Of a stretch of DNA of 64,000 nucleotides, positions 35,003-63,155 are shown one piece after another. The stretch is taken from assembly GCF_019797745.1 (NCBI RefSeq), contig NZ_VOSI01000002.1:682001-746000 (forward strand). Direction: 5' to 3'. How positions within the stretch are numbered: position 1 is the stretch's first letter; each line of letters begins with the position of its first letter. Source of the DNA: Edaphocola aurantiacus (GTDB lineage Bacteria > Bacteroidota > Bacteroidia > Chitinophagales > Chitinophagaceae). Below the pieces are notes generated by a model. The model was not told the DNA's origin. It saw only the letters and a program-made list of their open reading frames with translations, and searched no databases. Made by a program: the position numbers and the translations under genes.

Positions 35003-38000
35003 ATGAGAAAAATTGCTCAATATATATATCAATTTATTTTACTGGTATTATGTACCGGTATGATCGGGTACGGTCAGGATATTAAGTTTCGTCCGGACCA
35101 TGAATCAAAAGCATATTATTCCCGCAGTATTAAAACCATGGGATCACCATCGGGATACAATGATCTGCTGGGTACTACCAGTGCATTTGAATGGTTCGAA
35201 ATGACCTCAATTCCTTCCTCCTGGTCTCAGAAGTATACATTCAAAAGCGTATCCAATTACATTAAGGTAGCTATAGATCATAATGCAAAAGATGTAGTGA
35301 GCAATTACAAATACCAGCTTACATTCCAGGTTAAAGGATATAGTGATCCGGCCAGTCCGGGTACCTATACCACCCAAAACCATATCATTACCCTTGAATA
35401 TAATAAGGATTCCCTGGCTGCCTATAAGGATGCAACCCTGCTTAAACTACCGGGAAGCGGATTTTATTCCTTTGATCTTACCTTAATTGATGTTCAGGAA
35501 ATCAGTGGCTCCAGTCCTATGGCAGTCTCTAAATCAGGTCTGGCCCCAAACTTTTATATCCAGGCTGAGGTGGTAACCCAGCGCTATGATGATGATCTAT
35601 CTGGTAAAATGATTTTCGTCAATTCGGCTTACCACAGCGCCAGCCAGGAACTGGAGGTGAGATGGGGGAATTACGCACCATCGGAAGTAAGCAGCCTGCC
35701 CTCCGGATTTATGCCGATGTATGATAATTTTAAACCGGTGAAGTATGAACTGGAGTGGACTTATATAGATGATTATAAGCTGAATGATTATAATCATACA
35801 AGCGGAAGTGCGGGGTATAAAAATACGGCAAGTACCTTTTCTGTACCTTATAATTTCAAAAATAATGCTACACGAATCCAGACGGAGAACAACTATTTCT
35901 TTATCCCGGTGGTTTATGGACATGGCGCAGTTGTATTCCGTGTAAGAAGGATCCGTCCCGATAATGTCAACTTTACCGATCTTGTTTATTCCGATTGGAA
36001 CCTTCCGGAGTCAGGAAACCTTACTAATACCTCATTCGGAACAGGCGGTCTTAATGTCAATCCTTATCGCGCACCTTCAAATTGTATCCTGATTGTAGAA
36101 ACGCCCCATCAGAGTGATAGTGTAAACTACCAGTATAGCATCAGTTTTGCGGAAGAAGGTAAGTATAAGCATGTACTGAATTACTTTGATGGTATGGGAA
36201 AGAATCGGCAAACACAGACAAAAATTAATTCAGACCTCAATTATGTGGTGGCAATAGATAAAATCTATGATTTTGAAGGGCGTCCGGCCATTACTACATT
36301 ACCAACACCGGTGCTTAGCAGTAATTTGCAGTTCAAAAGCAACCTCTCTTTACATGCAGGAACCAACCAGCCCTATAGGGCTCCAGACTTTGACACCGGT
36401 TGCGTAACCGATACAGTAGCCCCTTTTGCATCAGTTGCGCTGGCAAGTGTATATTATTCTGATCAGAACACAGATAAATCCGGGATGCAAAAATTTGTGC
36501 CTGACGCGGGAGGTTATCCATTTATTCAGACCATCTATTCTCCTGATTATACCGATAAGGTACTCTGGCAGGGTGGAGCCGGGAAGAATTTTCAGCGTGG
36601 TAAAGACCACGGAACCCGATATGCTTATGTCCGGGCCGGGCAGAATGAGCTCAACAGATTATTTGGAACCGAGGCCGGCTATTTCCAGTATTACCCTAAG
36701 CAGGTAACGGTAGACCCGAATGGGCAGGCCAGCTTTGCTATTGTAAACCCTGCAGGGAAAACCGTGGCAACGGCCCTGGCTGGAACTTCACCTTCTTCAC
36801 TGCTATATCCTATTGATACGCTCGCAGATATGGCTTCAGCAAGCTATAAAGTGCAGGATATTTTAGCCGGTAACCTGCAGCAGATAGATAATGGCTTGCG
36901 CCGTGCTGAATATAGTTATTATAATGAAGCGGTGGGTTTTAACGGCCTTCGCTATAGTGCGGATATTGCTCCGTTCCCTACCGGATGTGGCAACCAGTAT
37001 ATCAATATTGCCGGAAAGCTGAATTATAAGATCATAGACGAGTGTGGTGGCATATATTTATCTAAGTCAGATGTCGCTGGTACTAACTCGGTTACTACCA
37101 GTAATCAGCACCAATATTACTGGGGAACTAAAGATTCTGTTCAGCTGATGCCCGGAAAGTATACGATCATTAAGGAGCTCAGCTTTCCGGATAGTACTAT
37201 CAGGAGTATGGCTTCTTCATTTGTCGACAATAATACCGGAAATGGCCTGTGTTATACAGGTAAAGAAGTATTTATCCGGAGCGAAATTGAAAATACAAGC
37301 TTTCCATGTCCTCCTTCTGATACCTTTAATGCCTGTGACGCGCTGCGCCAGAGACTGAAATCAGAGCTGTATCCCGGAGCTAAGTACGGACAGTACATTA
37401 AAGCGGATGACGGCTCATTTATTGCCGGAAGCGGTAACTCTATTTTTACCTATTATGATGTGTATGATAGCGTTAGCTATTACTGGGAGCATACCGATAC
37501 GCCAAAGATCGGCGATCGTTGTAAATACAAATTAAGGATTGATGACTGGCAAGATGAACCGACTGTACCCGGATCTAATCTGCTGTTAACCGAAATGGGT
37601 AGTGACAATAAAATACCATGGGTATGGTATGATGAGGTAATGGCGCCATATCCTCAGGGTGGTTATTTTTATACGGGCTCTGCACCATATAAAGTAAAGC
37701 ACACCTATATCGATACGCTTTACTGTGAAACAAAAAAAGCCTATTATCCCAATGCGGTAAATGTGGGTAAATGCCTCTATCATGTCTACTACCTCGGAAA
37801 TTGTTCTGTTCCCGGCTCTACTGGCGGATCCATGGCTACTGGAACAGATAAATATATCTGGGCAACAAGCCTGGCCGAAATTCCAACTTCAACGGTGGTT
37901 ACCCAGTCAGTGCCTATAGGTAACTTTATGTCGAAAGTGAACTGTACGGTATATCTGGATACAACGAACTATGAAATTATTGAGTGTAATGATGGAACGC

Positions 38001-41000
38001 CCTATTACCGTTACCAGGTTCCCTGTTTAAACGGCTTAGACCTTCAGCTGGAACAAATGGATGTCTATGGACAGATCAGCACCCTGACTGTAGCCCTTGA
38101 GGATGCTTCTCCCGAGCAGTTAATTCAAGGGTTTAACGATAATGTTGCTGAAACATTACTGCCATTGCATCCTGAATATTGTAAACTGCTGGCCTGTGAT
38201 ACAGGCAATTTTGAGGCCCGCTTGTCCGGACTGGAAACATACGATCAGGCAGTCTCTCTAGGCTTGCATACCCTTTCCGGTATTGTTGCTCAAGATCCTT
38301 TATGTACTGCCAATAAATCAGGCGCACCCTACAGTGCCGATCAGTTGTCTTATTTCGCGGCTGATGGAAGCCTGAGCGCATCCAATGCCGCGCTGCTCAA
38401 ACGCTTTGACTCGATGGCTGTTGCACAGGCATATTGTGGATGTAATTCAGCAGAAGCAACCGTTTATTGCCGCGAACAGCAGTATCAGAGCCAGATCAGC
38501 AGCATGACACTGGCCAGTAAGGAAATTAAGGATTTGTATATTAAATCCCTTAAAGCCCTATACCTGGCCAACCGGGGTTTACTGAAACAAAGGTTGACAG
38601 ATGGAGCAACGGCCGATTGCGGACCATGTGACAGTTTCCGCATGAACATGATTGGCATGCCTAATTTTACAACCATTTTTGATGCAAACGGAGATGTAAC
38701 CAGTGATTATATAGACCAGGATGTGAAAGATCTGATTAACAGCAGAAAAAATAATACCAGCGATACATCTCGGCCGGCAATGGTTGCCGGTATGGTTTCC
38801 GGTGGCAGTCAGGATTTCTGTAAACACCAGATCGCCATTATAATGGAAGACCTTAAAAGTTGCGGTAATTTGGACAGTGCGGAACTAGCCGGCATGGGCA
38901 CCTATCTGGAATCATTTTGTACAGGCACTTCCATGGGCGAAAATATTACCCCGGACATTATCAAAAACAAGCTCGTAGCCATGGGCAAGTACGATGACAT
39001 GTGTGGGCCTTTCCTAACCAAATATGCTGTATTTAATAAAAAACTGCTGACAGAAAAAGGTAGTTATATTGCTAAATCGCCTGAGTTCTACCAGGGTCTG
39101 GGTGACTTTATGAACCGTATAGATGTTACCAATGCATTATTAAATGCCCAGGCGACAGGCAGTGGTTCTGCTTCAATAACGATTACTAATAGTAATGTAT
39201 TTGAAAAGGCGCTGCTTACCCGGTTTGCATTATCCAGTGGAAGTAGTATTAATATTAATGGTTTCGTAACTACCTATCCGATCAGTGCCGGCAATACGGT
39301 AAATGCAACAGTATATAAACTGGCAATTACTTCCGGTAGCCTGAGCGATACGCTGTTTCTTGCAGAGCGAAACGTAGCGGGTAATGTACTGGCCAGCCCC
39401 TTAAAAGAAACCGATCCTTTAGGCGCCACTTTATTTACTTATATAAATTTTAGCAACAGTCATAACCTTTTTGCCGATAGCCTTACTTATGGCCTTGCCG
39501 AAGGTGGCGTGGCAGATAATCTGGCCTACATTACCTTAAATAAGCAGGTTGTGGTACAGTCAACGGGTGCTACGCGTAATACCAGCACTTTGTATAATAT
39601 CTGGAGCCATAACCTCCCTATGATGGACCCAAGAAGTCCGGATGGGGTAGAGGAGTGCGTTAACTGTGAACTGTTGCGCCGGGCAGTTGCCGACTATTAC
39701 AGTGCTGCCGCTACTTACCTTATGCCTACCAATGCTGCACACCCGTTTTTTGAGACCAGCCTGCAAAACTACCTGAACTATAAACTGGGTAAAAAACATG
39801 GCATAGAACAGTATGAAGCGCTGGCAGCAGGCTGTGGCCTTACCGATAAGATTGCCATAACCGGATCTCCCGCTACCGTGCAGGTAACTTTTGCCACCGC
39901 TGGCGCCACAGACTTTAGTCCTGCCAAAAGCTTTGTTCAATCACTGCAGCAGGCTTTCCCTTATGTGCGCATTGATCATTTTATGTTCAAAAATATGTCG
40001 GATAATAAGGTGACGGTATGGTTTGATCTGGCAACGATCAGCGATAGAGACACCATCAGAAACCTTAGAAATTATATCCAAACCAATGCGGGGGCAGGGG
40101 TTTACCAGTACCTGCCTGCAGGTTACAGTGCGGAATTGTTTAAACAAAATGGTGCCGCACCGGCGATTAGTGGAGGGGCAGTCAGCAATCAAAGTGTTCG
40201 CATACTGAACCAGGATGGAAGCTATAGCGATGCAACCCGTTATATGATCGATGCAACAGGTACGTTGCCCATAGATAAAGCAAGCGTAAGCCAGGCGGTA
40301 TTGAATTTTGCGGGGACTGATACCACAGCGACCTATATAAAAATTGTATTGGGTAATAAATTATACCGAAGCAGCGATTACAATACGACCGATAAGCAGG
40401 CTTACCTTACCTATGTATATGGACTCTCAAGCCTTAGTGAAAGTGAGGTTGCTGCAGCCCTTGCTCCGGCAACCCTGCAACAGCAGATCAGTGCATTTTC
40501 CTCAACAGACCTGAAACTGAGTTATAACAGCCCCTGGTGTACCGACAATAAGGGTAGCTTGTATTACTGGAATAAGAACCAGGGAAGCCACGGTGGATTT
40601 CAGCGCCTGAACACCTTACTGGGCCAGGTAAAAGCCAGCCTGGGCAGTAATAAGTTATTCCCTGCTGCTGCTACCGTAAATATCAGTGGAAACACTGGTA
40701 GTGGCAATGCATCGGTAAAAGCCTTCCGCCAGGGGAATGGAAATGCCTGGTACCGTATTTTTGATACGGACAATAAACTATACAATATCTATATCACCCC
40801 ATCTGTAAAGATGGCCGGTCCTGCCCAGGAGTATGCCATGCTCAGCGTGAGTCCATCTGTATATACAACAGAAGGCGCAACTGATGTATACCGCTTTAAT
40901 GTGCTCATGGCCCGCGGTACCGATACGGTAACCGTTTATGGATATACTGACTTCCCGATTGCTGCTGGAAGCAAATTGCAGGATGTAGTGCTGCAGGATA

Positions 41001-44000
41001 ATTATGGGCAGCAATTACAATGTATCGATACCAATAGTTGTGAGCACAGTAGCCTGCTGGCTGCGGTGGAGCAGGGTACCCAATTGCACTTTACCTATAT
41101 CGATTCTGTGAAGGCAGGTCTTGCCGCTGCCATGGCATGGTTTTACCCTAAAAATGCGATAGACACCTTGCAACATAGCATGCAGTCCCAGCAGTATCAC
41201 TACACTCTATACTATTATGACCTTGCCGGAAATCTTACCCGTACTGTACCGCCGGCAGGGGTACAGGCCCTGGGAACTGTAGCAACTGCTGCAGTTGATG
41301 GCGCCCGTAATGCCAGCTCATCGGTTACCAACCTGAGTATGAAAGCTGAACATAATAAGGCCAGTAACTATCGCTATAACAGCTTTAACCAGCTGGTATG
41401 GCAGCAGACGCCGGATGGGGGCATTACCGAGTTTTTCTATGACAAGGCTGGTCGCCTGGTGTTCTCACAAAATGCTGTACAACGCGCTGGAAAAAAGTAT
41501 AGTTATACCTTATATGACGACCAGAGCCGGGTGGTGGAAACAGGACAGATTACCGGAGATACGACCCTTTCTGTAGGTCAGCACCCGGTATTTATTACAA
41601 ATCTGTTCATGAAGAATATGAACGGGGCCGGTAGCATTGCCGATTGGGTTAAAGTTAAAGTAAGGGAAGAGGTAGTGGCTACCCGTTATGACAAACCATT
41701 GATCTCCCTGCAAGGATTCGATAATATGCTTTCCGATCAGCAGAACCTGCGTAAGCGGGTGAGTGCAATCCTGTATAGCCCGACGGTAACCACGCAGATG
41801 TCTATCGACTCCTATTATCACTATGCGACCCACTTCAGTTATGATGCCATGGGCAATGTGCAAACGCTTACCCATGACAACCCATACCTGGATTACATGA
41901 AACAGCGCTTCAAACGGATTGACTACGATTATGACCTGTTGAGTGGTAAGGTGAATATGTTGAGCTATAACCGCGGCTTTGCCGACCAGTTCTACCAGCG
42001 TTACGATTACGATGCTGATAATCGCCTGGTAGCCACGTTCAGCTCCAAAGACGGGCTGGAATGGGACCGTGATGCGGCTTATGCCTATTATAAGCATGGT
42101 CCGCTGGCCGAAGTGCAGTACGGCGACCTGAATGTACAGGGCGTACAGTATGCCTATACCATTCAGGGCTGGCTGAAAGCCATTAATGGGGACGGCCTAA
42201 ATACCGATCGCGATATGGGCCATGATGGTGTAGATAGCGTATACCCGGCCGATGTGATGAGCCATACACTGGATTATTATGCCAGTGATTATAAGGCCAT
42301 AGACCCGGCTGCCAGCGTAAGCACCCTTCCAAATCCTACGCGTTCCCTGTACAATGGTAATATTGTGCGCCAGGCTACCGCTACGGTGGGCAGCCCTAAT
42401 ATGGTGCGCGACTATACCTATGACCAGCTGCACCGGATCAAAAAGACAGAGTACAGCCTGTATGATAATATTACTATGGCGATGACCAGCATGGTTGATG
42501 CCTATAAAAATACGTACAGTTACGATCCTGACGGCAATATCCAGACCCTGACCCGTAATGACGGAGCGGGTAACCCACTGGATAACCTCAGTTACCATTA
42601 TCTAAATGCCAGCCAGAATAATAAACTGGGCTATGTAAGCGATGCGGTAAGCACCACCGGTGGCAATGACCTGAAAAATAACCAGGCCACCGGCAACTAT
42701 ACCTACGATGCCATTGGTAACCTCAAGAGCGACGCCAGTGAGGGTATTAAGGATATCCGCTGGAATGTGTACGGTAAAATGCTGACCTTAAGTAAGGGTA
42801 CTACCCAGGAAGACACAATGCAGCTGCAGTTTGCCTACGATGGTATGGGTAACCGTATCCGTAAAGACTACTGGCAGAATATCGGCAGTGGTAATACAGG
42901 AGCGTTGCGTACCAGCGATATTTATGTGCGTGATGCCCAGGGCAATATCCTTGCAGTATATAAAGAGAAAGCAACCATTAATGGTAGCAATACCATAGAC
43001 TGGTTGAATGATCAGCTGATTATGTCTGCTACGGCTACAGAGCTGGCTCCTTTCTACACCAACCAGGTGGGCAGCAATGGTGCTTTTGTCAATGACTTTA
43101 TGAACCAGGTGGTGGGTACCAACGGCAGCTGGGCTTATAATAAAATCATCAGCAAATCGACGGCTTATTATATGAGCCAGTCGCAGCCGATGTATGGTCA
43201 GGCCCTGCAAATGTACCTGCCCACCAGTTATGGAGATATTGTAGCTACGGACTGGAATCTGATCGGCAATGCCTTTATGGGAACACCGGAAAAAACGATG
43301 CGCGCCGGCTACTTGATCGAAAACCTGACCAATGCTGAGAATGATGCGGAATCGCGGAGCCAGACCCTTTTGCACCTGGTAAGCGATACCCGCGCGCTGG
43401 CTGATGATCTGCTTGCCAATATGGGCTATGATCCCGAAGGTTTGACCGAGTGGGATAAAGTTATGGCCATGCAGAACTTTATTGAAGAGCACGGAAGTAG
43501 AGATTTTGGTAATCTGTTCGTGGATAGAGTAAGGGATTATGACCCATCACCTTTCTGGGAAAATATGCTTAAGGATCCTGTGGTGTTGCGCCAGGATATA
43601 CTCGATAATATCCGCCCGGTGACCGAGGCCCTTATTGATGGGCTTGCTGACCGTACCGATGGCAATAACGAAGACCTGATCGGCTATATGGCCGATTGGA
43701 TGGACGGTAATGACCCCGGAGTATTCCTGGGCCAGTTCAGCCCTGCGACCAAACTGAATGTGATCTATGATGAAGATAAACCCTTATTTTTACAAACCTA
43801 TATCGGCACTTACGGTATAGCCAATGTAAGTCATGCGATCAAAGCCATACCAGGAGTAACAGCCATATCGGTGAACAGCTGGATTGTAAATGCGGCCAAT
43901 AATGGTATACTGCCGATGTCGGTAATGCAGTTTGTAAATACACCAAATCCACAGAATATCGATGCCGATACGCTATACCTGGCCGAGCATCACCTGTATG

Positions 44001-45298
44001 GCAGCAGCAGACTGGGCATCAAGTACTACCAGCCGGAACAGTATAGAAACATCTATACACCCGGTAGTCCAGTGGTACAGGGAGCCAGTGCAAGAGTGCC
44101 CTGGTACAGCCTGGCCTACGAGGAAATGGTGAAGAAGGGTGTACGCAATCCGCAGAGCCCTGCAGACCGTCTGGTGGATTCCTTTGCTACGGTAAGAACA
44201 CTAGGAACTAAAGAATATGAACTTACCGATCACTTAGGGAATGTACTAGCTAATGTACTTGACCGTAAGACGGGCTATGGTGCAGCCAATTTATTGTACA
44301 AAGGCTTCCATGCCGATGTAAGCAGTACAACGGATTATTATCCGTTTGGGTTTGGGATGAATGAGCGGAGTACTGGAAGTGGAGGAAGGTTCGGATTTAA
44401 TGGACAGGAAAAGGATAATGAAGTAAAAGGTAAGGGTAATCAATTAGCATTTGAATTTAGAGATTTTGATCCTAGATTAGGGAGATTCTTTGCAGTGGAC
44501 CCACTTTCGCAAAAGTATCCATATTATACACCTTATCAATTCGCGGGAAATCGAGTAATATCAAGTATCGATATTGAAGGACTAGAGGATTTGTATTTTA
44601 TGGATCAAAAGATTGAATCCATTAAAGGAGAACCAGTTGTTACGATAATTAATGGAGTTGAAACCATGCAACAAGAAATGGCAGATTTTAAAAATCCCGA
44701 TATAAATAAAGGTTATAATATAATAATATTAGATGGATTCCAAGAGGTGAAAAATGAGTCAATGTCTTCTAAGGCATTTAGAGGGATGGGGAAAGCTTAT
44801 ACAGGGCCTCGATTAGATGCAAAGATGGTGGAAATGTATAGCACTGGTGTCCTAACGGCAAATGATGATATCTTTACCCCAGAGGTTATGGGTAGCAGGG
44901 CATTTAAAGAAACTGTAGCGCAAAAAAGAGGTGTTGTATTTATTTATTTACCTAAAGGAACAGTCGAAAAGTCTAGATTAGCAGCAAAGCAATTAGACGA
45001 TATATATGAAAGATTTAAATTTTTTGATGCAGCAAATACTATTATTCATGAAGCGATTGCTCACGCGTTTAGAAGAGTTAAATATGGAAGTAAATTTACA
45101 GAAGAGCAAGATCACGATACGTTCTTTAAAGATGAAAGTTCTGATGTTAAATGGGATGCAAGTAAAGGTACATCTCCCCAATATACCTATATAAAAGATC
45201 ATCTTCCAAATTCAGTTGCAGGGAAAATTCAAAGGGAGATTGATAGGCAAATTGAAAATATGAAAAGCAACAGTAAATCTAAAACAAAATCAAAATGA
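35003..45298 (+). CDS. Giant RHS polymorphic toxin with HExxH metallopeptidase-like C-terminal tip
   Basis: The 3431-residue protein has a signal peptide (1-25, ending 'GYGQ'), then beta domains with 'YFDGMGKNRQTQTKINSDLNY' (about residues 394-414), a Cys-rich central part, and YD-type repeats from about residue 2065 ('YYYDLAGNLTRT', 'EFFYDKAGRLVFSQ', 'YDYDADNRLVATF'). The RHS core ends with 'YELTDHLGNVLANV' and 'FNGQEKDNEV', 'FRDFDPRLGRFFAVDPLSQKYP..TPYQFAGN' (3070-3185). After 'DIEGLEDLY' composition turns AT-rich and the final 240 residues form a variable toxin domain with 'NTIIHEAIAHAFRR' (HExxH, 3349-3353), a zincin-like zinc site. About 320 residues (2672-2990) are inserted between 'DAQGNILAVYK' and 'HLYGSSRLG'. 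The family delivers toxins to competitors. The target is unknown. Confidence 0.8.
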   Translation: MRKIAQYIYQFILLVLCTGMIGYGQDIKFRPDHESKAYYSRSIKTMGSPSGYNDLLGTTSAFEWFEMTSIPSSWSQKYTFKSVSNYIKVAIDHNAKDVVSNYKYQLTFQVKGYSDPASPGTYTTQNHIITLEYNKDSLAAYKDATLLKLPGSGFYSFDLTLIDVQEISGSSPMAVSKSGLAPNFYIQAEVVTQRYDDDLSGKMIFVNSAYHSASQELEVRWGNYAPSEVSSLPSGFMPMYDNFKPVKYELEWTYIDDYKLNDYNHTSGSAGYKNTASTFSVPYNFKNNATRIQTENNYFFIPVVYGHGAVVFRVRRIRPDNVNFTDLVYSDWNLPESGNLTNTSFGTGGLNVNPYRAPSNCILIVETPHQSDSVNYQYSISFAEEGKYKHVLNYFDGMGKNRQTQTKINSDLNYVVAIDKIYDFEGRPAITTLPTPVLSSNLQFKSNLSLHAGTNQPYRAPDFDTGCVTDTVAPFASVALASVYYSDQNTDKSGMQKFVPDAGGYPFIQTIYSPDYTDKVLWQGGAGKNFQRGKDHGTRYAYVRAGQNELNRLFGTEAGYFQYYPKQVTVDPNGQASFAIVNPAGKTVATALAGTSPSSLLYPIDTLADMASASYKVQDILAGNLQQIDNGLRRAEYSYYNEAVGFNGLRYSADIAPFPTGCGNQYINIAGKLNYKIIDECGGIYLSKSDVAGTNSVTTSNQHQYYWGTKDSVQLMPGKYTIIKELSFPDSTIRSMASSFVDNNTGNGLCYTGKEVFIRSEIENTSFPCPPSDTFNACDALRQRLKSELYPGAKYGQYIKADDGSFIAGSGNSIFTYYDVYDSVSYYWEHTDTPKIGDRCKYKLRIDDWQDEPTVPGSNLLLTEMGSDNKIPWVWYDEVMAPYPQGGYFYTGSAPYKVKHTYIDTLYCETKKAYYPNAVNVGKCLYHVYYLGNCSVPGSTGGSMATGTDKYIWATSLAEIPTSTVVTQSVPIGNFMSKVNCTVYLDTTNYEIIECNDGTPYYRYQVPCLNGLDLQLEQMDVYGQISTLTVALEDASPEQLIQGFNDNVAETLLPLHPEYCKLLACDTGNFEARLSGLETYDQAVSLGLHTLSGIVAQDPLCTANKSGAPYSADQLSYFAADGSLSASNAALLKRFDSMAVAQAYCGCNSAEATVYCREQQYQSQISSMTLASKEIKDLYIKSLKALYLANRGLLKQRLTDGATADCGPCDSFRMNMIGMPNFTTIFDANGDVTSDYIDQDVKDLINSRKNNTSDTSRPAMVAGMVSGGSQDFCKHQIAIIMEDLKSCGNLDSAELAGMGTYLESFCTGTSMGENITPDIIKNKLVAMGKYDDMCGPFLTKYAVFNKKLLTEKGSYIAKSPEFYQGLGDFMNRIDVTNALLNAQATGSGSASITITNSNVFEKALLTRFALSSGSSININGFVTTYPISAGNTVNATVYKLAITSGSLSDTLFLAERNVAGNVLASPLKETDPLGATLFTYINFSNSHNLFADSLTYGLAEGGVADNLAYITLNKQVVVQSTGATRNTSTLYNIWSHNLPMMDPRSPDGVEECVNCELLRRAVADYYSAAATYLMPTNAAHPFFETSLQNYLNYKLGKKHGIEQYEALAAGCGLTDKIAITGSPATVQVTFATAGATDFSPAKSFVQSLQQAFPYVRIDHFMFKNMSDNKVTVWFDLATISDRDTIRNLRNYIQTNAGAGVYQYLPAGYSAELFKQNGAAPAISGGAVSNQSVRILNQDGSYSDATRYMIDATGTLPIDKASVSQAVLNFAGTDTTATYIKIVLGNKLYRSSDYNTTDKQAYLTYVYGLSSLSESEVAAALAPATLQQQISAFSSTDLKLSYNSPWCTDNKGSLYYWNKNQGSHGGFQRLNTLLGQVKASLGSNKLFPAAATVNISGNTGSGNASVKAFRQGNGNAWYRIFDTDNKLYNIYITPSVKMAGPAQEYAMLSVSPSVYTTEGATDVYRFNVLMARGTDTVTVYGYTDFPIAAGSKLQDVVLQDNYGQQLQCIDTNSCEHSSLLAAVEQGTQLHFTYIDSVKAGLAAAMAWFYPKNAIDTLQHSMQSQQYHYTLYYYDLAGNLTRTVPPAGVQALGTVATAAVDGARNASSSVTNLSMKAEHNKASNYRYNSFNQLVWQQTPDGGITEFFYDKAGRLVFSQNAVQRAGKKYSYTLYDDQSRVVETGQITGDTTLSVGQHPVFITNLFMKNMNGAGSIADWVKVKVREEVVATRYDKPLISLQGFDNMLSDQQNLRKRVSAILYSPTVTTQMSIDSYYHYATHFSYDAMGNVQTLTHDNPYLDYMKQRFKRIDYDYDLLSGKVNMLSYNRGFADQFYQRYDYDADNRLVATFSSKDGLEWDRDAAYAYYKHGPLAEVQYGDLNVQGVQYAYTIQGWLKAINGDGLNTDRDMGHDGVDSVYPADVMSHTLDYYASDYKAIDPAASVSTLPNPTRSLYNGNIVRQATATVGSPNMVRDYTYDQLHRIKKTEYSLYDNITMAMTSMVDAYKNTYSYDPDGNIQTLTRNDGAGNPLDNLSYHYLNASQNNKLGYVSDAVSTTGGNDLKNNQATGNYTYDAIGNLKSDASEGIKDIRWNVYGKMLTLSKGTTQEDTMQLQFAYDGMGNRIRKDYWQNIGSGNTGALRTSDIYVRDAQGNILAVYKEKATINGSNTIDWLNDQLIMSATATELAPFYTNQVGSNGAFVNDFMNQVVGTNGSWAYNKIISKSTAYYMSQSQPMYGQALQMYLPTSYGDIVATDWNLIGNAFMGTPEKTMRAGYLIENLTNAENDAESRSQTLLHLVSDTRALADDLLANMGYDPEGLTEWDKVMAMQNFIEEHGSRDFGNLFVDRVRDYDPSPFWENMLKDPVVLRQDILDNIRPVTEALIDGLADRTDGNNEDLIGYMADWMDGNDPGVFLGQFSPATKLNVIYDEDKPLFLQTYIGTYGIANVSHAIKAIPGVTAISVNSWIVNAANNGILPMSVMQFVNTPNPQNIDADTLYLAEHHLYGSSRLGIKYYQPEQYRNIYTPGSPVVQGASARVPWYSLAYEEMVKKGVRNPQSPADRLVDSFATVRTLGTKEYELTDHLGNVLANVLDRKTGYGAANLLYKGFHADVSSTTDYYPFGFGMNERSTGSGGRFGFNGQEKDNEVKGKGNQLAFEFRDFDPRLGRFFAVDPLSQKYPYYTPYQFAGNRVISSIDIEGLEDLYFMDQKIESIKGEPVVTIINGVETMQQEMADFKNPDINKGYNIIILDGFQEVKNESMSSKAFRGMGKAYTGPRLDAKMVEMYSTGVLTANDDIFTPEVMGSRAFKETVAQKRGVVFIYLPKGTVEKSRLAAKQLDDIYERFKFFDAANTIIHEAIAHAFRRVKYGSKFTEEQDHDTFFKDESSDVKWDASKGTSPQYTYIKDHLPNSVAGKIQREIDRQIENMKSNSKSKTKSK

Positions 45299-46381: not shown

Positions 46382-46430
46382 TGCCATTCAAATAATTTAT
46401 TAATGCATTTATAAAAAATCGGATAGTTTG
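46382..46430 (+). promoter_or_regulatory. lanB promoter with LytTR-like half-sites
   Basis: TGCCATTCAAATA (46382-46394) matches the 13-bp motif found near lanA (TGACATTCAAATA at 50950). A weaker copy (ATGCATTTATAAA) starts 21 bp later at 46403, and after another 21 bp TAGTTTG (46424-46430) resembles a Bacteroidota -7 box. The lanB start follows at 46447. The regular 21-bp stepping suggests a LytTR response-regulator operator touching the promoter. Confidence 0.6.
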
Positions 46431-46446
46431 GATTAAAACAACTATC

Positions 46447-49209
46447 ATGAAATATAACCTCAATAAAAAAGTCCTTTTTAGGACACCACAATTTCCTATC
46501 AATGCTAAGCTTGAAGACTGCTGGGATGACCTAAAAGCCTCAATTAAGATATCATCGCCTGACTTTTATAAGATTATAGAGCACATGCATTTTGAAGATA
46601 TCGAAAATGACTCAAGGCCAGTGCAGTACACGATCGCTAAGTATTTTAATCGTGCACGGTTTCGCCCTACGCCTTATGGCACTTTTGCAAGTATCGGAAT
46701 AGCTGGCCTAGGGAATCCTGGAGATATCCTAACCCTAAATGATAAAATGATCAGGCACTCCTTTCTTGACTGGCGGGAAATTATTGAATTTCAGGATCAG
46801 TGGTCACAATATTCGATACAAGATCTTTGTTTTCAATCTAATTCAGCCAGTTATAAATGCGGTGAACTGATACGATGTATTTATAAGAATGGGGAGCAGT
46901 TTGAATTAAGTGATATTCCATATTATCAAGTTATTGTAGACTTGATTGAATTCTGCACGGAAACTAGATCTTTCATGGAAATCAAAGCTCGTTTTCTTGC
47001 AGATTTTGAGAGTGAATCTGATCTGAAAGAAATACTTGTAACGCTTATTATAAACCAACTGATATTTACTAATTGCCAGGCAAGCATTATTGATGACCTT
47101 CATAAATTAGAGTGCTTCCCCGGTCGGGTAAGAACTTATGATATTTGTCAAAGAACAAGTGATAGCGGTTCAATCCATTTTCCATACGAAGTTGAACTCA
47201 AGGAATTGATAACTTTTCTTTCTGGACAATACTCAAGTTCAGAGCCTGAAGATCTGATACGGTTTAAAGATCGGTTTTTAAACCAATACGATCAGCGGGC
47301 CATTAAATTGCTGGAAGCCCTTGATCCCGAAATGGGTATCGGATATGGGGACCTGGAAAATTATAATGGAGACGAACTTATAGATCTGTTTACGGGTTTT
47401 GAGTCAATTAAAGAAAAGAGCCCTGATCTGTCAGAATTGTTGAAAAAGAGTCTATTCACAAAAGCGACTTTGCCATCCGTTATTCATCTGGAGGACTACA
47501 ATGATCTTAAAAAGAAAGAGTGGCATAAAATACCGAACACATTTAACGCTATAGTCAGTCCTGCGGGCGATGGCTATTTTGTCAGTATGTTAGGGGGGGC
47601 ATCTGCCAATTCCATTTTAGGTCGATTCAATCTGGTAGACGATGAAATTCTTATGTTGTGCAGAGATAATGCGAGGTTAGAATCTGAAGCTAATCCAGAG
47701 GTGCTCTTTTTTGATATTGCTTATTGTGGCGAGAGAAATGTCGATAATATCAATAGGAGGAGACCAATTTATGATTATCAGGTTTCTATTCATTCCTTTT
47801 CAAAAAATACAGCCCAAATCCCTTTAAATGACATTTATATAGGAGTCCGTTCGGCTGAGGTCATATTGTATTCAAAAACATTAAAAAAGAGACTTATTCC
47901 CAGACTTTCCAGTGCTTATACTTATACACGTTCTGATCTTTCTTTATTCCGGTTCCTATGTGATATACAGAGCCAAAATATCAAGCTCTCTTTAATCCCC
48001 AATTTAGATACTGCGTTTGAAAACGTAGACTTTAAACCCCAAATCCGCTTCAAAAATTTGATACTATCACCTGCAGGTTGGAGAATTAGGCTCGAAGATT
48101 TTCCTGTTTCCAATGAAAATTTTAAAAATGGGGTAAGCCTTAATGGGAGGTATCGTTTTGTAAAAATTGGGTATGCTGATCAAACACTACATCTGAATAG
48201 TGGTTCAGTGGAGGATTTGGATCTAATCTATTCGATTCTGAAAACCAAAAAGGAACTTTGGATACAGGAGAGCTTTACCCAGGAAGAAATTCTGATCCGT
48301 GATTCAATTGGTAATTCCTATGCAACTGAGCTGGTATTAAGTATTTCCCATAATAGTACCATTTATCCTGGTGTAAGACTGAATAGCAACGAAACAAATG
48401 TGCAGAGGACCTTTTTGCCTGGAAGTGAATGGATGTATTTTGAATTGTTTATACATCCATGTAAGGCAAACGAAGTACTAATTGCCCAAATATCTTCTGT
48501 CTTAAACCAACTTAAAGGTAAGATTCAGAAGTGGTTTTTTATCCGGTACAATGAGTCTGGGGATCACCTTAGGCTACGACTTCAGTTAAATGATTTATCC
48601 GATTATAGCATGGTAATGGAATTTATACAAAAGTTTTTTGCTGAGATAAGAGACAGAGGCTTTCTGAAAGATTTAAGAATATGTACTTACAGGCGGGAAT
48701 TGGAGCGTTATGGTTCTAATATCATAGATCAGGTCGAAGAGCTGTTTTGTCATGATTCAGTATATGTTCTGCAGGTTATTAAAAATCTCCCTGATAAAGT
48801 TACACTTTATCTGAATACAGTTGACATAATGATCAGGGTGGGAAACTCCATTTTTGGAAAGTTGGAATTACAACCTGTTTTTAGTAAATTGTTATCAGTC
48901 CATAATAATGAACATAATTTAAATTCGAAGGCATTTAAAGCCATCAATAGCTTTTATAAGATAGAGATTAGGCCAAGGCAAGCAGAAATTTCAACCGTGT
49001 CGGAAATTGAAATTACAAATGCCTATATTGCCGTTCTAAGGCCTCTTGCACGGGAGAGGCAGATTCAACTATTTGCAGATTTTTTCCATATGCATATAAA
49101 TAGACTCTTTTCCGATAAGCAAAGAGAACATGAGACTATTATATATAATCTTTTGATGAACCGGATCAAGGAGATTCAATTCAAGCGAACTTCATTAATG
49201 GAAGGATGA
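46447..49209 (+). CDS. lanB: Class I lanthipeptide dehydratase (LanB), full length
   Basis: The 920-residue protein contains the N-terminal glutamylation domain, with 'ARFRPTPYGTFASIGI' at 70-85 (the family's 'sRpTPfGlFa' motif). It also has the C-terminal elimination (SpaB_C/thiopeptide-type) domain from about residue 654 ('RTFLPGSEWMYFELFIHP', 'WFFIRYNESGDHLRLRLQL', 'YRRELERYGS'). LanB enzymes use glutamyl-tRNA to dehydrate Ser and Thr of a precursor peptide in the cytoplasm. The length is usual for an unsplit enzyme. The precursor gene lies 1.85 kb downstream beyond a two-component pair on the other strand. Its 3' end overlaps the response-regulator gene by 15 bp tail to tail. Regulation by that pair is suggested by the repeats at 46382. 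Confidence 0.9.
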   Translation: MKYNLNKKVLFRTPQFPINAKLEDCWDDLKASIKISSPDFYKIIEHMHFEDIENDSRPVQYTIAKYFNRARFRPTPYGTFASIGIAGLGNPGDILTLNDKMIRHSFLDWREIIEFQDQWSQYSIQDLCFQSNSASYKCGELIRCIYKNGEQFELSDIPYYQVIVDLIEFCTETRSFMEIKARFLADFESESDLKEILVTLIINQLIFTNCQASIIDDLHKLECFPGRVRTYDICQRTSDSGSIHFPYEVELKELITFLSGQYSSSEPEDLIRFKDRFLNQYDQRAIKLLEALDPEMGIGYGDLENYNGDELIDLFTGFESIKEKSPDLSELLKKSLFTKATLPSVIHLEDYNDLKKKEWHKIPNTFNAIVSPAGDGYFVSMLGGASANSILGRFNLVDDEILMLCRDNARLESEANPEVLFFDIAYCGERNVDNINRRRPIYDYQVSIHSFSKNTAQIPLNDIYIGVRSAEVILYSKTLKKRLIPRLSSAYTYTRSDLSLFRFLCDIQSQNIKLSLIPNLDTAFENVDFKPQIRFKNLILSPAGWRIRLEDFPVSNENFKNGVSLNGRYRFVKIGYADQTLHLNSGSVEDLDLIYSILKTKKELWIQESFTQEEILIRDSIGNSYATELVLSISHNSTIYPGVRLNSNETNVQRTFLPGSEWMYFELFIHPCKANEVLIAQISSVLNQLKGKIQKWFFIRYNESGDHLRLRLQLNDLSDYSMVMEFIQKFFAEIRDRGFLKDLRICTYRRELERYGSNIIDQVEELFCHDSVYVLQVIKNLPDKVTLYLNTVDIMIRVGNSIFGKLELQPVFSKLLSVHNNEHNLNSKAFKAINSFYKIEIRPRQAEISTVSEIEITNAYIAVLRPLARERQIQLFADFFHMHINRLFSDKQREHETIIYNLLMNRIKEIQFKRTSLMEG

Positions 49210-49905
49210 AATAATCTTCGGCAGAACGGATAATCGGTACGTTCTGCCGATAGGAATTTTATTTCCATTTTCCATGTAAATTAGGTTTCCCTGGATTGAA
49301 CTTACTTTATTAGTATTGATCAGGTAGGACCTATGGACCCTTATAAAATGCTTTGAAGAAAATTGCTCGAGGAGCTTTTCTAGAGAACTTATGAATATGT
49401 AATTTTTGTTGTTAAGAACAAGGGTCATATAGTTTCCGTCGGATTTGATATAAAAAATATCACCCAATTTTATCTTAATAAAGCTGCCTTTATGTTTCCC
49501 TGGAATAGTTATTATTTGCTTGAGAACACTTACCTGATCTCCACAAATAAGTTTTTTGACTTTTTCTACTGCTTCGTTGAATCGTTCTTGTCTTATTGGC
49601 TTTAATAAATAGTCTGCTACATTAAGAGAAAATGCTTCGAATGCATACTCTCTGTATCCTGTTGTAAAAATTACTATTGTTTTGCCTTTCATCAAATCTG
49701 CAACGTCTAATCCGGATATGCCGGGCATTTCAATATCCAGGAATAATAGGTCGATGTGCAATCCATTGTCGACCTCTTTTAAAAAATCTGCAGGACTACT
49801 GGAAGTTCCGATGAGTTGGAGGTCCTCATGGTTCTTTATCATAATTTCCAGCACTTTGAATTGTGAAGGGAAATCATCTAATATAAAGCATTTAAGCTGG
49901 GTCAT
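49195..49905 (-). CDS. LytTR response regulator of the lanthipeptide locus
   Basis: The 236-residue protein has a receiver domain with acidic pocket 'ILDD' (residues 8-11), phospho-acceptor Asp in 'LLFLDIEMPGISGLD' (about residue 57), and Lys in 'YLLKPI'. A C-terminal LytTR DNA-binding domain follows ('KIKLGDIFYIKSDGNYMTLVL', 'FIRVHRSYLINTNKV', 'IPIGRTYR'). LytTR regulators bind pairs of short direct repeats one or two helical turns apart. A fitting repeat family is present at 46382, 50950 and 51295. The gene overlaps the kinase gene by 14 bp, so the two are coupled, and runs into the lanB 3' end. Confidence 0.9.
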   Translation of the reverse strand: MTQLKCFILDDFPSQFKVLEIMIKNHEDLQLIGTSSSPADFLKEVDNGLHIDLLFLDIEMPGISGLDVADLMKGKTIVIFTTGYREYAFEAFSLNVADYLLKPIRQERFNEAVEKVKKLICGDQVSVLKQIITIPGKHKGSFIKIKLGDIFYIKSDGNYMTLVLNNKNYIFISSLEKLLEQFSSKHFIRVHRSYLINTNKVSSIQGNLIYMENGNKIPIGRTYRLSVLPKIISSFH

Positions 49906-50932
49906 TTCTTAATATTTTTAGGTCGAGTTCATAGAATCCGGCAGCAAAAGACTCTTTCCATCGATACCTTTTTGGGTAAAAGTTTTCAAGAGTTTGAAGA
50001 ACTGATTTTGTTCCCATTTGCTCCCGCTCACTATTAGGTAAATTAATGGCAGTTTTGTTTTGTATGAGTATCTGGACTTTTGAAATATCTGCCTTAATCA
50101 ATATAAATGGTGGCATATCTTTCTTATTGAAATCTGCATGTTTAAACACATTTTCGATTAAGGTAACCAGCGCATGAGGGGGGAAATCCATCTGTTTAGA
50201 TTCTTCATCTATCTCTAAAGAAAGTTGAAAATTTGTTTTACCTAAATTTTTGAAAAGATCAATAACCTGTTCCATGACTTTAAGCTCGTTTGATAAGGAG
50301 TTTCTAAAGGCTGGGTTGCTCATTTCCAGCGCGCTGGTTTGAATATCCATTAAGGAGTAAATAATCCGTACCGTTTCTGGCGCCCTTTCCATTAAAATTC
50401 CTTGTACACTACTTAATGCATTTACCATTAAGTGAGGGCTCATTTGGGTACGGAGTAACGCTAGTTCTAACTTTGCATATTCCTCATTTTGTTTTGAAAT
50501 AGCGACATCTTGTTCTCTCTTTTGTCTCTCGTAAAGAATTGATTTTTTGGCATACCAATATCCGAAAGCGATAGAGAAAATATAAATCTGCCTCATTAAA
50601 TACCTTAATATATAGGTTTTATATTGGCTATAGTCAAATGCTACATTTCTAAAACGATATTGGCCTAAAGTAATTCCAAAAATTAAGTATGCGAATGTTA
50701 CTACATAAATTGCTAGTAATAATACTTTAATTGACCAAAGCTTTATTAATAGGTCTATCTTCGGGAGTATTAAATGGGTTGCCAGAAAGAAAAACACAAT
50801 TTGTACACCATAAAAAATTATAAAATCGCCGAGAAAAGCTTTTGAACCCATTAAGAGTACGACATAGGACTCTATAAAAATGAATAGCGCTATTGCAAAT
50901 ATGTGCCATAATATTTTGTTAGTTTTTGACAT
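49892..50932 (-). CDS. LytS-type sensor histidine kinase of the lanthipeptide locus
   Basis: The 346-residue protein has four predicted membrane helices (about residues 8-26, 34-55, 66-90, 110-128), a short coiled coil ('RQKREQDVAISKQNEEYAKLELALL'-type, part only), then the His_kinase domain with phospho-acceptor His in 'RTQMSPHLMVNALSSVQ' (about residue 166) and the ATP-binding N box 'LVTLIENVFKHA' (about residue 255). This kinase class pairs with LytTR regulators, as here. With no extra sensory domain, the membrane part is the likely sensor. It might detect the peptide product or envelope stress. It diverges from the precursor gene across a 128-bp region carrying the putative operator. Confidence 0.9.
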   Translation of the reverse strand: MSKTNKILWHIFAIALFIFIESYVVLLMGSKAFLGDFIIFYGVQIVFFFLATHLILPKIDLLIKLWSIKVLLLAIYVVTFAYLIFGITLGQYRFRNVAFDYSQYKTYILRYLMRQIYIFSIAFGYWYAKKSILYERQKREQDVAISKQNEEYAKLELALLRTQMSPHLMVNALSSVQGILMERAPETVRIIYSLMDIQTSALEMSNPAFRNSLSNELKVMEQVIDLFKNLGKTNFQLSLEIDEESKQMDFPPHALVTLIENVFKHADFNKKDMPPFILIKADISKVQILIQNKTAINLPNSEREQMGTKSVLQTLENFYPKRYRWKESFAAGFYELDLKILRNDPA

Positions 50933-50949: not shown

Positions 50950-51020
50950 TGACATTCAAATAGGTAATAATGCTGTTTAGACATAATAATGTGAAGATTT
51001 TGAGGTTGTGCTTATATTTA
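50950..51020 (+). promoter_or_regulatory. Divergent kinase/lanA control region with LytTR-like repeats
   Basis: TGACATTCAAATA (50950-50962) and TGCTGTTTAGACA (50971-50983) are 21 bp apart, a degenerate third copy starts at 50992, and TATATTTA (51013-51020), close to the TAnnTTTG -7 box, follows 21 bp later. Precursor start is at 51061 and the kinase start is at 50932 on the other strand, so one operator could serve both. Confidence 0.6.
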
Positions 51021-51060
51021 AGTCAATTAAATATTAATAACAATTCAGAACTAACAGATT

Positions 51061-51213
51061 ATGAAAAATCAAAGTATTAAAATTGAAAGAATTTCTTCTT
51101 TTAAGTTCCAAAGCAATTTAAACAAGAAAACTACAGGGAAGTCGGGTGGTGATCCAACTACTACAACGGTTGGCACTAATCCCACAGTAACTTTTCTATG
51201 TGTAGTAAAGTAA
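51061..51213 (+). CDS. lanA: Class I lanthipeptide precursor peptide (50 residues)
   Basis: The 50-codon gene encodes a charged leader 'MKNQSIKIERISSFKFQSNL' continuing 'NKKTTGKSGG', then a Thr-rich end 'DPTTTTVGTNPTVTFLCVVK'. The 'LNKKT' box followed by a Gly-Gly is typical of Bacteroidota class I lanthipeptide leaders, and 'F.FQSNL' resembles the FxLx recognition box. If cleaved after GG, the 20-residue core has seven Thr, no Ser and a single Cys, so at most one lanthionine-type ring and several dehydrobutyrines could form. It is flanked by a regulated-looking promoter and a strong terminator, which fits a highly expressed monocistronic precursor. Confidence 0.85.
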   Translation: MKNQSIKIERISSFKFQSNLNKKTTGKSGGDPTTTTVGTNPTVTFLCVVK

Positions 51214-51239
51214 TTTATTTGAAGATTGTTCAACTTTTT

Positions 51240-51262
51240 GCCGGGTTATCCCGGCTTTTTTT
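51240..51262 (+). terminator. Strong terminator after the precursor gene
   Basis: GCCGGG (51240-51245), loop TTAT, CCCGGC (51250-51255) and seven Ts. It lies 26 bp after the precursor stop and makes lanA a single-gene transcript. Confidence 0.95.
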
Positions 51263-51294
51263 GTTTTATATAGGTATGCTTTCAGAAAAGTAGG

Positions 51295-51369
51295 TGTCAT
51301 TCGTAAAGGAAATACTGTCGTTTAAATAATTTATTTGTCGTTCGTACAAAGAATGCTGCTGTTCAGATA
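51295..51369 (+). repeat. Four tandem 13-bp repeats with 20-21 bp period (probable LytTR operator array)
   Basis: TGTCATTCGTAAA (51295), TGTCGTTTAAATA (51316), TGTCGTTCGTACA (51336) and TGCTGTTCAGATA (51357) begin 21, 20 and 21 bp apart. Together with copies at 50950, 50971 and 46382, the positions T1, G2, T6, T7, A11 and A13 never vary. Two-turn spacing on one DNA face is what LytTR proteins recognise. The array precedes a TAACTTTG box at 51421. Confidence 0.7.
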
Positions 51370-51420: not shown

Positions 51421-51428
51421 TAACTTTG
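51421..51428 (+). promoter_or_regulatory. Bacteroidota -7 box (TAACTTTG) downstream of the repeat array
   Basis: TAACTTTG is an exact TAnnTTTG match, with the T-rich TTTTC about 21 bp upstream in the -33 place. Transcripts starting here would have a leader of about 380 nt before the gene at 51812. That leader is AT-rich, has an ATAATTC/GAATTAT inverted repeat (51610-51626) and no convincing small gene. Confidence 0.5.
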
Positions 51429-51811
51429 TGTTCAAGAAAGGCAGAATGGAATAGGAATAAATATTAAAAGTTCAGGATTGAAATGCAGATATAATAATAA
51501 AAATTGACAAAGAATTTTTGATTTTCAAGTAGATTTTAAAGGATATAAAAGCCAATAAAAATGGTGCTGTGTCGAATTGCTTTTTGTTGTAAATATAATT
51601 TTTATTTCCATAATTCTGTGAATTATTAAGTCTAATATTAGTCATTTGGCATAGAATGTGATTTCGGCGGAAAGATGACTTTTTCATAAAAACTGGCGTA
51701 GCTGAAAACCAGTAAAAAAGAGTAGGCACTATTTCTAACCCGCAAAACCAGTTGCTTAGTAATTGGCCGGAGCCGATAATTTTTTCAAAAACTCCCCAAA
51801 AATTTAAAATT

Positions 51812-52120
51812 ATGAAACGTATCGTTTTATCAACAGCTGCCCTTATGCTGGCTACAGCATTCTCGTTTGCAGGCACTCCTGAGACAAAAACCGAAGCAAA
51901 AGCAAAACCTGAAGTAAAAACCGAAATTGCTTCACAGGTTTATCACTATGATTCTAAAAATAGCAATGGTACGATCAATTTCTTACCTGGGGAACCAGGT
52001 CAAAATGATTGTACCGACGGTGAAACTCCATGTCGTTGGGTTTCTGACGCACCGTTGACTTCTCCTATGAGCCCTGCTCAAATCGAGAGCCAAGCGACTG
52101 TAACAGATTACCGTCCATAG
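51812..52120 (+). CDS. Small exported protein, tentatively DUF6520-like
   Basis: The start is placed at ATG 51812, which gives a 102-residue product with an ideal signal peptide ('RIVLSTAALMLATAFSFA', cleavage near residue 21). A longer upstream frame from 51752 lacks this logic. The mature part is Lys/Glu-rich and then has 'VYHYDSKNSNG', two Cys in 'NDCTDGETPCRW' and a Pro-rich tail. Short secreted proteins with such a 'C...G.pC.W' region occur next to SusC/SusD and TlpA genes in Bacteroidota (DUF6520 type, by memory). It converges on the TlpA-like gene and shares a bidirectional terminator with it. The four-repeat array upstream suggests control by the lanthipeptide two-component system. 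Confidence 0.65.
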   Translation: MKRIVLSTAALMLATAFSFAGTPETKTEAKAKPEVKTEIASQVYHYDSKNSNGTINFLPGEPGQNDCTDGETPCRWVSDAPLTSPMSPAQIESQATVTDYRP

Positions 52121-60640: not shown

Positions 60641-60742
60641 TCTGGTTAATTACAATTGTGTCCGGCGGCAGCATATATAAAATAGGGAAATCACAAATAA
60701 GGTTCCTGCAAGGCAGGGGGACATGCATTCAATAAGTATGTT

Positions 60743-60750
60743 CAAATATA
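60743..60750 (-). promoter_or_regulatory. Candidate -7 box for the ECF sigma gene
   Basis: On the minus strand 60750-60743 reads TATATTTG, an exact TAnnTTTG. It is about 103 bp before the sigma start. No good -33 TTTG is at the expected distance. The remaining divergent space 60641-60989 is AT-rich and shows no further gene or repeat. Confidence 0.35.
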
Positions 60751-60989
60751 TAAATAATTAATTTGAATGACAGCCATGTGACTGTAAAAACCGTGAGAAA
60801 AATGGGGTAGTCAACAATGAGGAATAACCTGGAAGCATAAATGGGCTGGTTTTAGCTGCCATCTTTACCAGTAAAGGGCTTGTACCGGTAACCTAATACT
60901 CTATCTATAAATTATAAATACTGTAGTTTCATGGTTAAAAAATAAATCGTAATATTATCTTATACTAAAAGTTTAAACATCCTAAGCCC

Positions 60990-62246: not shown

Positions 62247-63155
62247 ATGAGTATACCGCCCATTAAATATAATGATCTGTGGTTTAGAATAATTGTCTGT
62301 TTGCTGTCTGCCCATTTTTTGGTTATGGTGGGAGAGAAGGTAGATACGTTGGAAGCATTGACTATTCCTTCATACTATCCAACCCTTTTGATCAATTATA
62401 TAATCGCCCTTCTGATTGCCTTTGCGGTAAAAAAGGTTACGGTTAGCCTGGATAAAACCTTACGGTGGGAAAATGATCTCCTGCGCCGCCTGATCCTGCA
62501 ATTCGTTTTTGGTGTGTTTGCGGTATCTGTTCTGTCCTTTGCTCTGGTTTTTATTTACTTCATTTCTTTTGGTCAGGATATATTGGCATCCACCTATCCG
62601 GCATATGAATTCCCGTTTTCCGTAGTATTGATTCTTTGCCTGAACTTCTTTTATGTAACCTTCTATTTCTATCAGCTCAGAAGAGAAAGTCATCTGTCAG
62701 GGCAACTGGAAGATAAGGATTTCTCGATGCAGGTAGTTCATAATATTGTGGACGAACTACATCAGCGGGATAAGAAGGAGATTTTGATTATTGATATGGC
62801 AACCAGAAGTATTCCGGTCCGTATTTCAGAGCTGGCATTTACATTTGTAGACAGCGGAGCCACATTCGTTATGCTAAAAAGCATGCAGAGACTGCAGGAT
62901 GCGTACGTGGTAAATAGTACCTTAAAGGATCTTGAGCAGAGCCTTGATGGAGATCGTTTCTTTAGGATCAACAGGAAATGTATAGTAAACTTCGATGTGA
63001 TCAGAGCCTATAAAAGTGGGCAGGACAGATCGCTCGTGTTAATATTGGAACCGGATATTACCAAATGGATCGGTATGGAACAACAAGATTTGATCAGGAT
63101 ATGTACCGTAAGTGCCGATAGGGTGTCAGCATTTAAACGTTGGATTGATCGCTGA
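62247..63155 (+). CDS. Membrane protein with C-terminal LytTR DNA-binding domain
   Basis: The 302-residue protein has four predicted membrane helices (about residues 12-28, 45-62, 84-110, 125-145), then a helical linker and a LytTR domain ('IPVRISELAFTFVDSGATFVMLKSM', 'FFRINRKCIVNFDVIRAYKSG'). It lacks a receiver domain, so DNA binding would be steered directly by the membrane part, a one-component design known in Bacteroidota. It starts 203 bp from the divergent 129-residue gene and ends at an inverted repeat shared with the convergent 127-residue gene. The gene cut by the window end at 63665 appears to be a paralogue. Confidence 0.8.
   Translation: MSIPPIKYNDLWFRIIVCLLSAHFLVMVGEKVDTLEALTIPSYYPTLLINYIIALLIAFAVKKVTVSLDKTLRWENDLLRRLILQFVFGVFAVSVLSFALVFIYFISFGQDILASTYPAYEFPFSVVLILCLNFFYVTFYFYQLRRESHLSGQLEDKDFSMQVVHNIVDELHQRDKKEILIIDMATRSIPVRISELAFTFVDSGATFVMLKSMQRLQDAYVVNSTLKDLEQSLDGDRFFRINRKCIVNFDVIRAYKSGQDRSLVLILEPDITKWIGMEQQDLIRICTVSADRVSAFKRWIDR

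Follow-up and report, generated by a model that had tools for sequence, protein, structure and literature searches.

Phased direct repeats as probable operators of a LytTR response regulator at a LanB dehydratase locus of Edaphocola aurantiacus

Which protein reads the short direct repeats that precede several promoters of a LanB-encoding locus in the Bacteroidota species Edaphocola aurantiacus (genome 3.69 Mb), and which genes does it control through them? The locus was analysed within a 64,000-nucleotide stretch of this genome (the window, to which all coordinates refer). The LanB dehydratase (46447..49209, + strand) is short but full-length with 920 aa, both Lant_dehydr_N and Lant_dehydr_C (PF04738 and PF14028) being matched and conserved residues being present in both domains. 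A response regulator is encoded at 49195..49905 on the minus strand. It combines a receiver domain containing the conserved residues D57 and K102 with a LytTR DNA-binding domain (Pfam LytTR, E=7.6e-21) that displays the contact motif FIRVHRS, and is the predicted binder of the repeats. The nearest profile model to this protein is BtsR, with a score under the model cut-off, while ComE (4cbv) is among its PDB matches. The regulator gene overlaps that of a LytS-type membrane histidine kinase (Pfam His_kinase; 49892..50932, -). A 50 aa precursor peptide with a single Cys, located within a C-terminal T-x-x-C, is encoded by lanA (51061..51213, +), and a DUF6520 small exported protein follows at 51812..52120 (+). 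Beyond the latter, the minus strand carries genes for TlpA-like, SusD, SusC, FecR and ECF sigma proteins.

Seven copies of a 13-bp box were proposed for this locus in the original prediction, and each was found at its predicted position and fits the pattern TGNYRTTYRNANA. The lanB promoter contains the operator box TGCCATTCAAATA (46382..46394, +), followed 21 bp later by a degenerate second box ATGCATTTATAAA (46403..46415, +) and by the -7-like box TAGTTTGG (46424..46431, +). This degenerate box constitutes an eighth copy with its core YRTTYRNANA intact; hence, lanB combines a strong box with a weak one. At the lanA promoter, a distal box TGACATTCAAATA (50950..50962, +) and a proximal box TGCTGTTTAGACA (50971..50983, +) precede the -7-like box TATATTTA (51013..51020, +), which is the sole match of at least 5/6 to a -7 element on the plus strand of the gap between the kinase gene and lanA. 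The order of elements here is box, TGTG, 19 bp, TATATTTA. Downstream of lanA, an array of four boxes, TGTCATTCGTAAA (51295..51307), TGTCGTTTAAATA (51316..51328), TGTCGTTCGTACA (51336..51348) and TGCTGTTCAGATA (51357..51369), all on the plus strand, leads to a perfect -7 box of the Bacteroidota type, TAACTTTG (51421..51428, +). All boxes share the same orientation, and the clustered ones start 20 or 21 bp apart as predicted, with spacings of 21 bp for the lanA pair (50950/50971) and of 21, 20 and 21 bp within the array (51295/51316/51336/51357).

The original prediction further held that the -7 boxes continue this stepping. This applies to lanA and lanB, where the -7 box lies exactly 42 bp from a box start (51013 from 50971 and 46424 from 46382), but only roughly to the third promoter, where the distance is 64 bp (51421 from 51357). 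As 42 and 64 bp correspond to approximately four and six helix turns, the boxes would share a face of the DNA with the polymerase site. Published LytTR operators are 9–11-bp direct repeats separated by 11–12 bp that directly precede the promoter; their spacing is highly conserved, their sequence little (PMC6193735). In the Bacteroides examples, 11 bp separate the repeats from TGTA or TGTG, after which come 19 bp and TATCTTTG (PMC6193735).

We consider it very probable that the adjacent LytTR regulator (49195–49905) uses the boxes as its operators, and that this protein activates lanA, lanB and the 51421 promoter through them. The boxes directly precede promoters, occur in tandem only at this locus and recur as phased repeats in dozens of species, and are therefore most likely sites of the neighbouring regulator. 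Binding of the boxes by this protein is predicted. Activation, rather than repression, is proposed because the proximal box abuts a poor -33 region on its upstream side, with its start 42 bp before the -7 box.

A similar density of the motif across unrelated intergenic regions had been named beforehand as evidence against its significance, and genome-wide scans gave different answers for the single and the tandem box, only the latter withstanding this check. The single box has 206 matches in the 3.69-Mb genome compared to 167 for a reversed-pattern control, and the 64-kb window itself contains six further matches besides the seven copies. With counts this near background, the single-box scan is uninformative. 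The tandem form, defined as two boxes with a gap of 6–10 bp (period 19–23 bp), is found four times genome-wide, each time within this locus, whereas approximately 0.03 matches are expected from the single-site density and the control yields 0. The regular expression was derived from the window copies themselves, so independent support is provided by a Sphingobacterium relative and by a motif-blind test, both described below. Behind the three exact 21-bp pairs, the next rank is held jointly by the lanB pair and two others (2 mismatches each), although a tandem scan allowing up to 3 mismatches drowns in background (75 matches compared to 68 for the control). A weak box pair with 3 mismatches is found at 60739–60772 (-), preceding the ECF sigma gene that belongs to the adjacent FecR/SusCD/TlpA group; it was dropped as a candidate operator because tandems with this number of mismatches sit at genome background.

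The Sphingobacterium relative (L057) is a metagenome-assembled genome of 6.6 Mb, with a LanB that is 58% identical to that of the window. Its lanA is preceded by a 21-bp box pair and its lanB by one clear box only, and at lanA as well as at lanB of both species the start of the proximal box precedes the -7 box by exactly 42 bp. After lanA, L057 contains four boxes at 21, 20 and 21 bp, and behind them the TTTGTTTTTGACTATAACTTTGTG promoter block of the window. The stretch from the array to the third promoter, covering the 64 bp to the -7 box, aligns without gaps between the two, and the -7 box itself lies within an identical stretch. Three tandem matches were found in the L057 genome, all within this locus. 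The four-box array before DUF6520 was also sought in the other related loci, and is present only in the window and L057.

These observations bear on whether the repeats are a by-product lacking a regulatory role, arising from tandem duplication, AT-rich phased tracts or plasmid-type iterons. The intergenic DNA is indeed AT-rich, and iterons are likewise direct repeats of 20–22 bp. However, the copies differ outside the motif positions while motif and phase are still kept in L057. Furthermore, no replication gene was seen near the boxes, and the contig is of chromosomal size (950 kb). Together with the comparison across species that follows, this makes an origin as a by-product extremely unlikely, and both simple tandem duplication and plasmid iterons were rejected.

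By scanning named genomes, 80 loci containing this short LanB type were found, drawn from Taibaiella, Sphingobacterium, Pedobacter, Mucilaginibacter and Chitinophaga. Within the fetched stretches, 78 of the 80 contain a match to the LytTR regulator and 75 a match to the kinase. Two arrangements were seen: a window type, consisting of LanB, regulator, kinase and usually one precursor, often with DUF6520, TlpA and SusCD; and a Pedobacter type, with LanB, kinase, one to seven precursors and regulator, where SusCD is generally absent on that side. The window matrix mostly fails on distant relatives because the box sequence drifts, and we instead determined self-similarity within 170 bp upstream of the precursor gene, using a threshold of at least 10/13 identity and no prior motif. 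A repeat was detected at 21 bp in 24 of 76 loci and at 22 bp in 16, compared to 0–8 loci at each remaining spacing between 12 and 59 bp, although these counts come from related species and binomial statistics overstate their independence. Conservation of the repeats upstream of orthologous loci, named beforehand as a check, is seen both in L057 and in this 21–22-bp peak. Control upstream regions from the same loci show only 5.9% at 21 bp, and other species hold the 21-bp phase at the same place with different sequences, neither of which is expected of a by-product.

By type, the 21-bp repeat was found in 10 of 22 window-type loci, while the Pedobacter-type loci are divided between 21 bp (14/54) and 22 bp (15/54). 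The lanA pair of the window is only 7/13 identical and hence is not counted among the 10, and several further window-type loci have no pair reaching 9/13. The repeat sequences vary by species (for example GGTCATTYARAWA, GGTTACCCA, TTTCACAT and TTTCATCAC): the box sequence drifts between species and the spacing persists, as in published LytTR operators. A distance of 41–43 bp between box and -7 box was found at several loci beyond the window and L057, with the spacing frames outside L057 placed by hand and L072, L103 and L132 departing from 42 bp. In window-type loci, the lanA repeat has a top-5% match before the lanB of the same locus in 6 of 15 cases; in Pedobacter-type loci, the lanA repeat is not common to the lanB promoter (2/43).

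Given that the repeats behave as operators, the identity of the protein that reads them has to be considered. The genome encodes 12 LytTR proteins besides the regulator, so the pairing of regulator and boxes rests on conserved linkage only. Two of the additional genes are located ~11–13 kb downstream of the boxes: one at 62247–63155, coding for a LytTR protein without receiver domain, and a second just past the window end (contig position 746214). Either of these, or another of the 13 LytTR proteins, might be the reader of LytTR-kind operators at this locus. We regard this as unlikely, as almost every related locus combines LanB and the precursor with the regulator–kinase pair, and the tandem boxes are restricted to this locus. 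In addition, the window and L057 share both the box sequence and an identical contact motif, FIRVHRS, whereas most loci with differing boxes have a different motif. A non-LytTR activator or repressor that makes use of 21-bp phasing appears very unlikely. Other regulator families also use direct repeats at two helix turns, and binding by the LytTR regulator is itself a prediction. Nevertheless, the locus holds no other conserved regulator gene, and the geometry is within ~1 bp of that of LytTR-controlled Bacteroides promoters (PMC6193735). Repeats of 20–21 bp, a fixed 42-bp distance, an adjacent LytTR regulator and recurrence among relatives are all in keeping with the predicted LytTR-type operator on a single DNA face, read by the regulator at 49195–49905.

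Several known systems resemble that of the window. The LytTR Regulatory System (HdrRM, BrsRM and the LRS-like operons of Bacteroides; PMC6193735) likewise has direct repeats of ~20–22 bp before the promoter, and the Bacteroides LRS-like operons, with ATTCA-like cores followed by TGTA/TGTG, 19 bp and TATCTTTG, possess nearly the geometry of lanA. The partner of the regulator in that system is an inhibitory membrane protein, whereas in the window it is a histidine kinase, and the window regulator carries a receiver domain, unlike its counterparts. The repeats serve autoregulation in the LytTR Regulatory System; in the window, the proposed targets are peptide genes and a promoter with four boxes. 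The AgrA (PMC4227749) and ComE type similarly combines receiver and LytTR domains, a kinase partner and direct repeats before promoters with poor elements. It differs in that the window promoter elements are of the Bacteroidota -33/-7 kind, and the AgrA contact motif is FFRCHNS as opposed to FIRVHRS. The operator core YRTTYR follows the AgrA consensus only partly. The sites of YpdB from Escherichia coli are reportedly GGCATTTCAT repeats with a spacing of ~21 bp that precede a transporter gene. YpdB is a LytTR response regulator that binds promoter DNA at two cooperating sites (PMC4847170).

We propose that the regulator works together with the overlapping membrane kinase, and that in its phosphorylated form it would bind the boxes in pairs, the two sites being separated by two helix turns and lying on a single DNA face. 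Its targets would be lanA, lanB (one strong and one weak site) and, via the four-box array conserved in L057, the lineage-specific promoter at 51421, which probably runs into the DUF6520 gene as its likely target. The original prediction had also included the regulator's own operon among the targets. Autoregulation of the kinase–regulator operon is not supported: although found immediately before the kinase start, the boxes are oriented away from it, and no -7-like box was found on the minus strand near the boxes, where another promoter type is possible. In nisin-type systems, the cluster-encoded kinase–regulator pair NisRK controls precursor and modification genes, as proposed for the window, although NisR is an OmpR-type regulator, whereas the window regulator is of the LytTR type and is encoded in a genome without LanC. 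By analogy to nisin, the inducing signal is possibly the modified peptide itself.

The description of this region as a lanthipeptide locus holds in so far as LanB is present, and is put in doubt by the remaining evidence. LanC (PF05147) has no match in the genome, which is 99.98% complete, and 13 of the 23 genomes tested that encode this LanB type (the window genome included) lack it. The absence of any LanC from the genome was noted for the window and for relatives L060–L136. Precursors lack cysteine in 56 of the 77 loci that have a recognised precursor. Those of the window type mostly contain one Cys near the C-terminus, often as S/T-x-x-C. Precursors of the Pedobacter type were observed to be Cys-free and often encoded by up to seven near-identical genes in tandem. 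With no LanC and mostly Cys-free precursors in relatives, the lanthipeptide label is not established, and a dehydrated peptide containing no more than one ring is an equally likely product.

A literature search that covered few subscription papers returned no LytTR operators linked to such loci in Bacteroidota, apart from one paper in which all three terms merely co-occur; the lanthipeptides of Pedobacter lusitanus have reportedly been the subject of a dedicated study. The operator type is already known; a LanB system that lacks LanC and has a LytTR pair of its own may be less well known. The locus points to a dehydratase-based peptide family lacking the usual cyclase, and the boxes give this peptide-modifying locus, common to ~80 Bacteroidota genomes, an operator that can be tested and is unique in the genome. 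The fixed geometry allows prediction of promoters and precursor genes in silent clusters, while the drifting box sequences form a natural series for studying how LytTR domains read DNA. It is conceivable, if rather doubtful, that Sphingobacteriales and Chitinophagaceae share a LanC-independent signalling system based on LanB-modified peptides, in which the LytS-type kinase would sense a dehydrated, often Cys-free peptide, and the LytTR regulator would amplify its own inducer via species-specific operators that drift with the regulator while the 21-bp phase is kept, thus rendering the circuit of each species private.

Further features were observed in the region. A DUF805b RNA (RF02914, cis-regulatory) is located at 51692–51728 in the DUF6520 leader, and also precedes DUF6520 in L058 and L072, as seen when Rfam was applied to seven loci. 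Between lanA and DUF6520, the loci L031, L033 and L037 contain a small ORF (~50–65 aa, with a hydrophobic C-terminal part) that is apparently missing in the window and L057. Lastly, a 3431-aa ORF at 35003–45298 contains repeats that, judged by eye, are YD/RHS-like.
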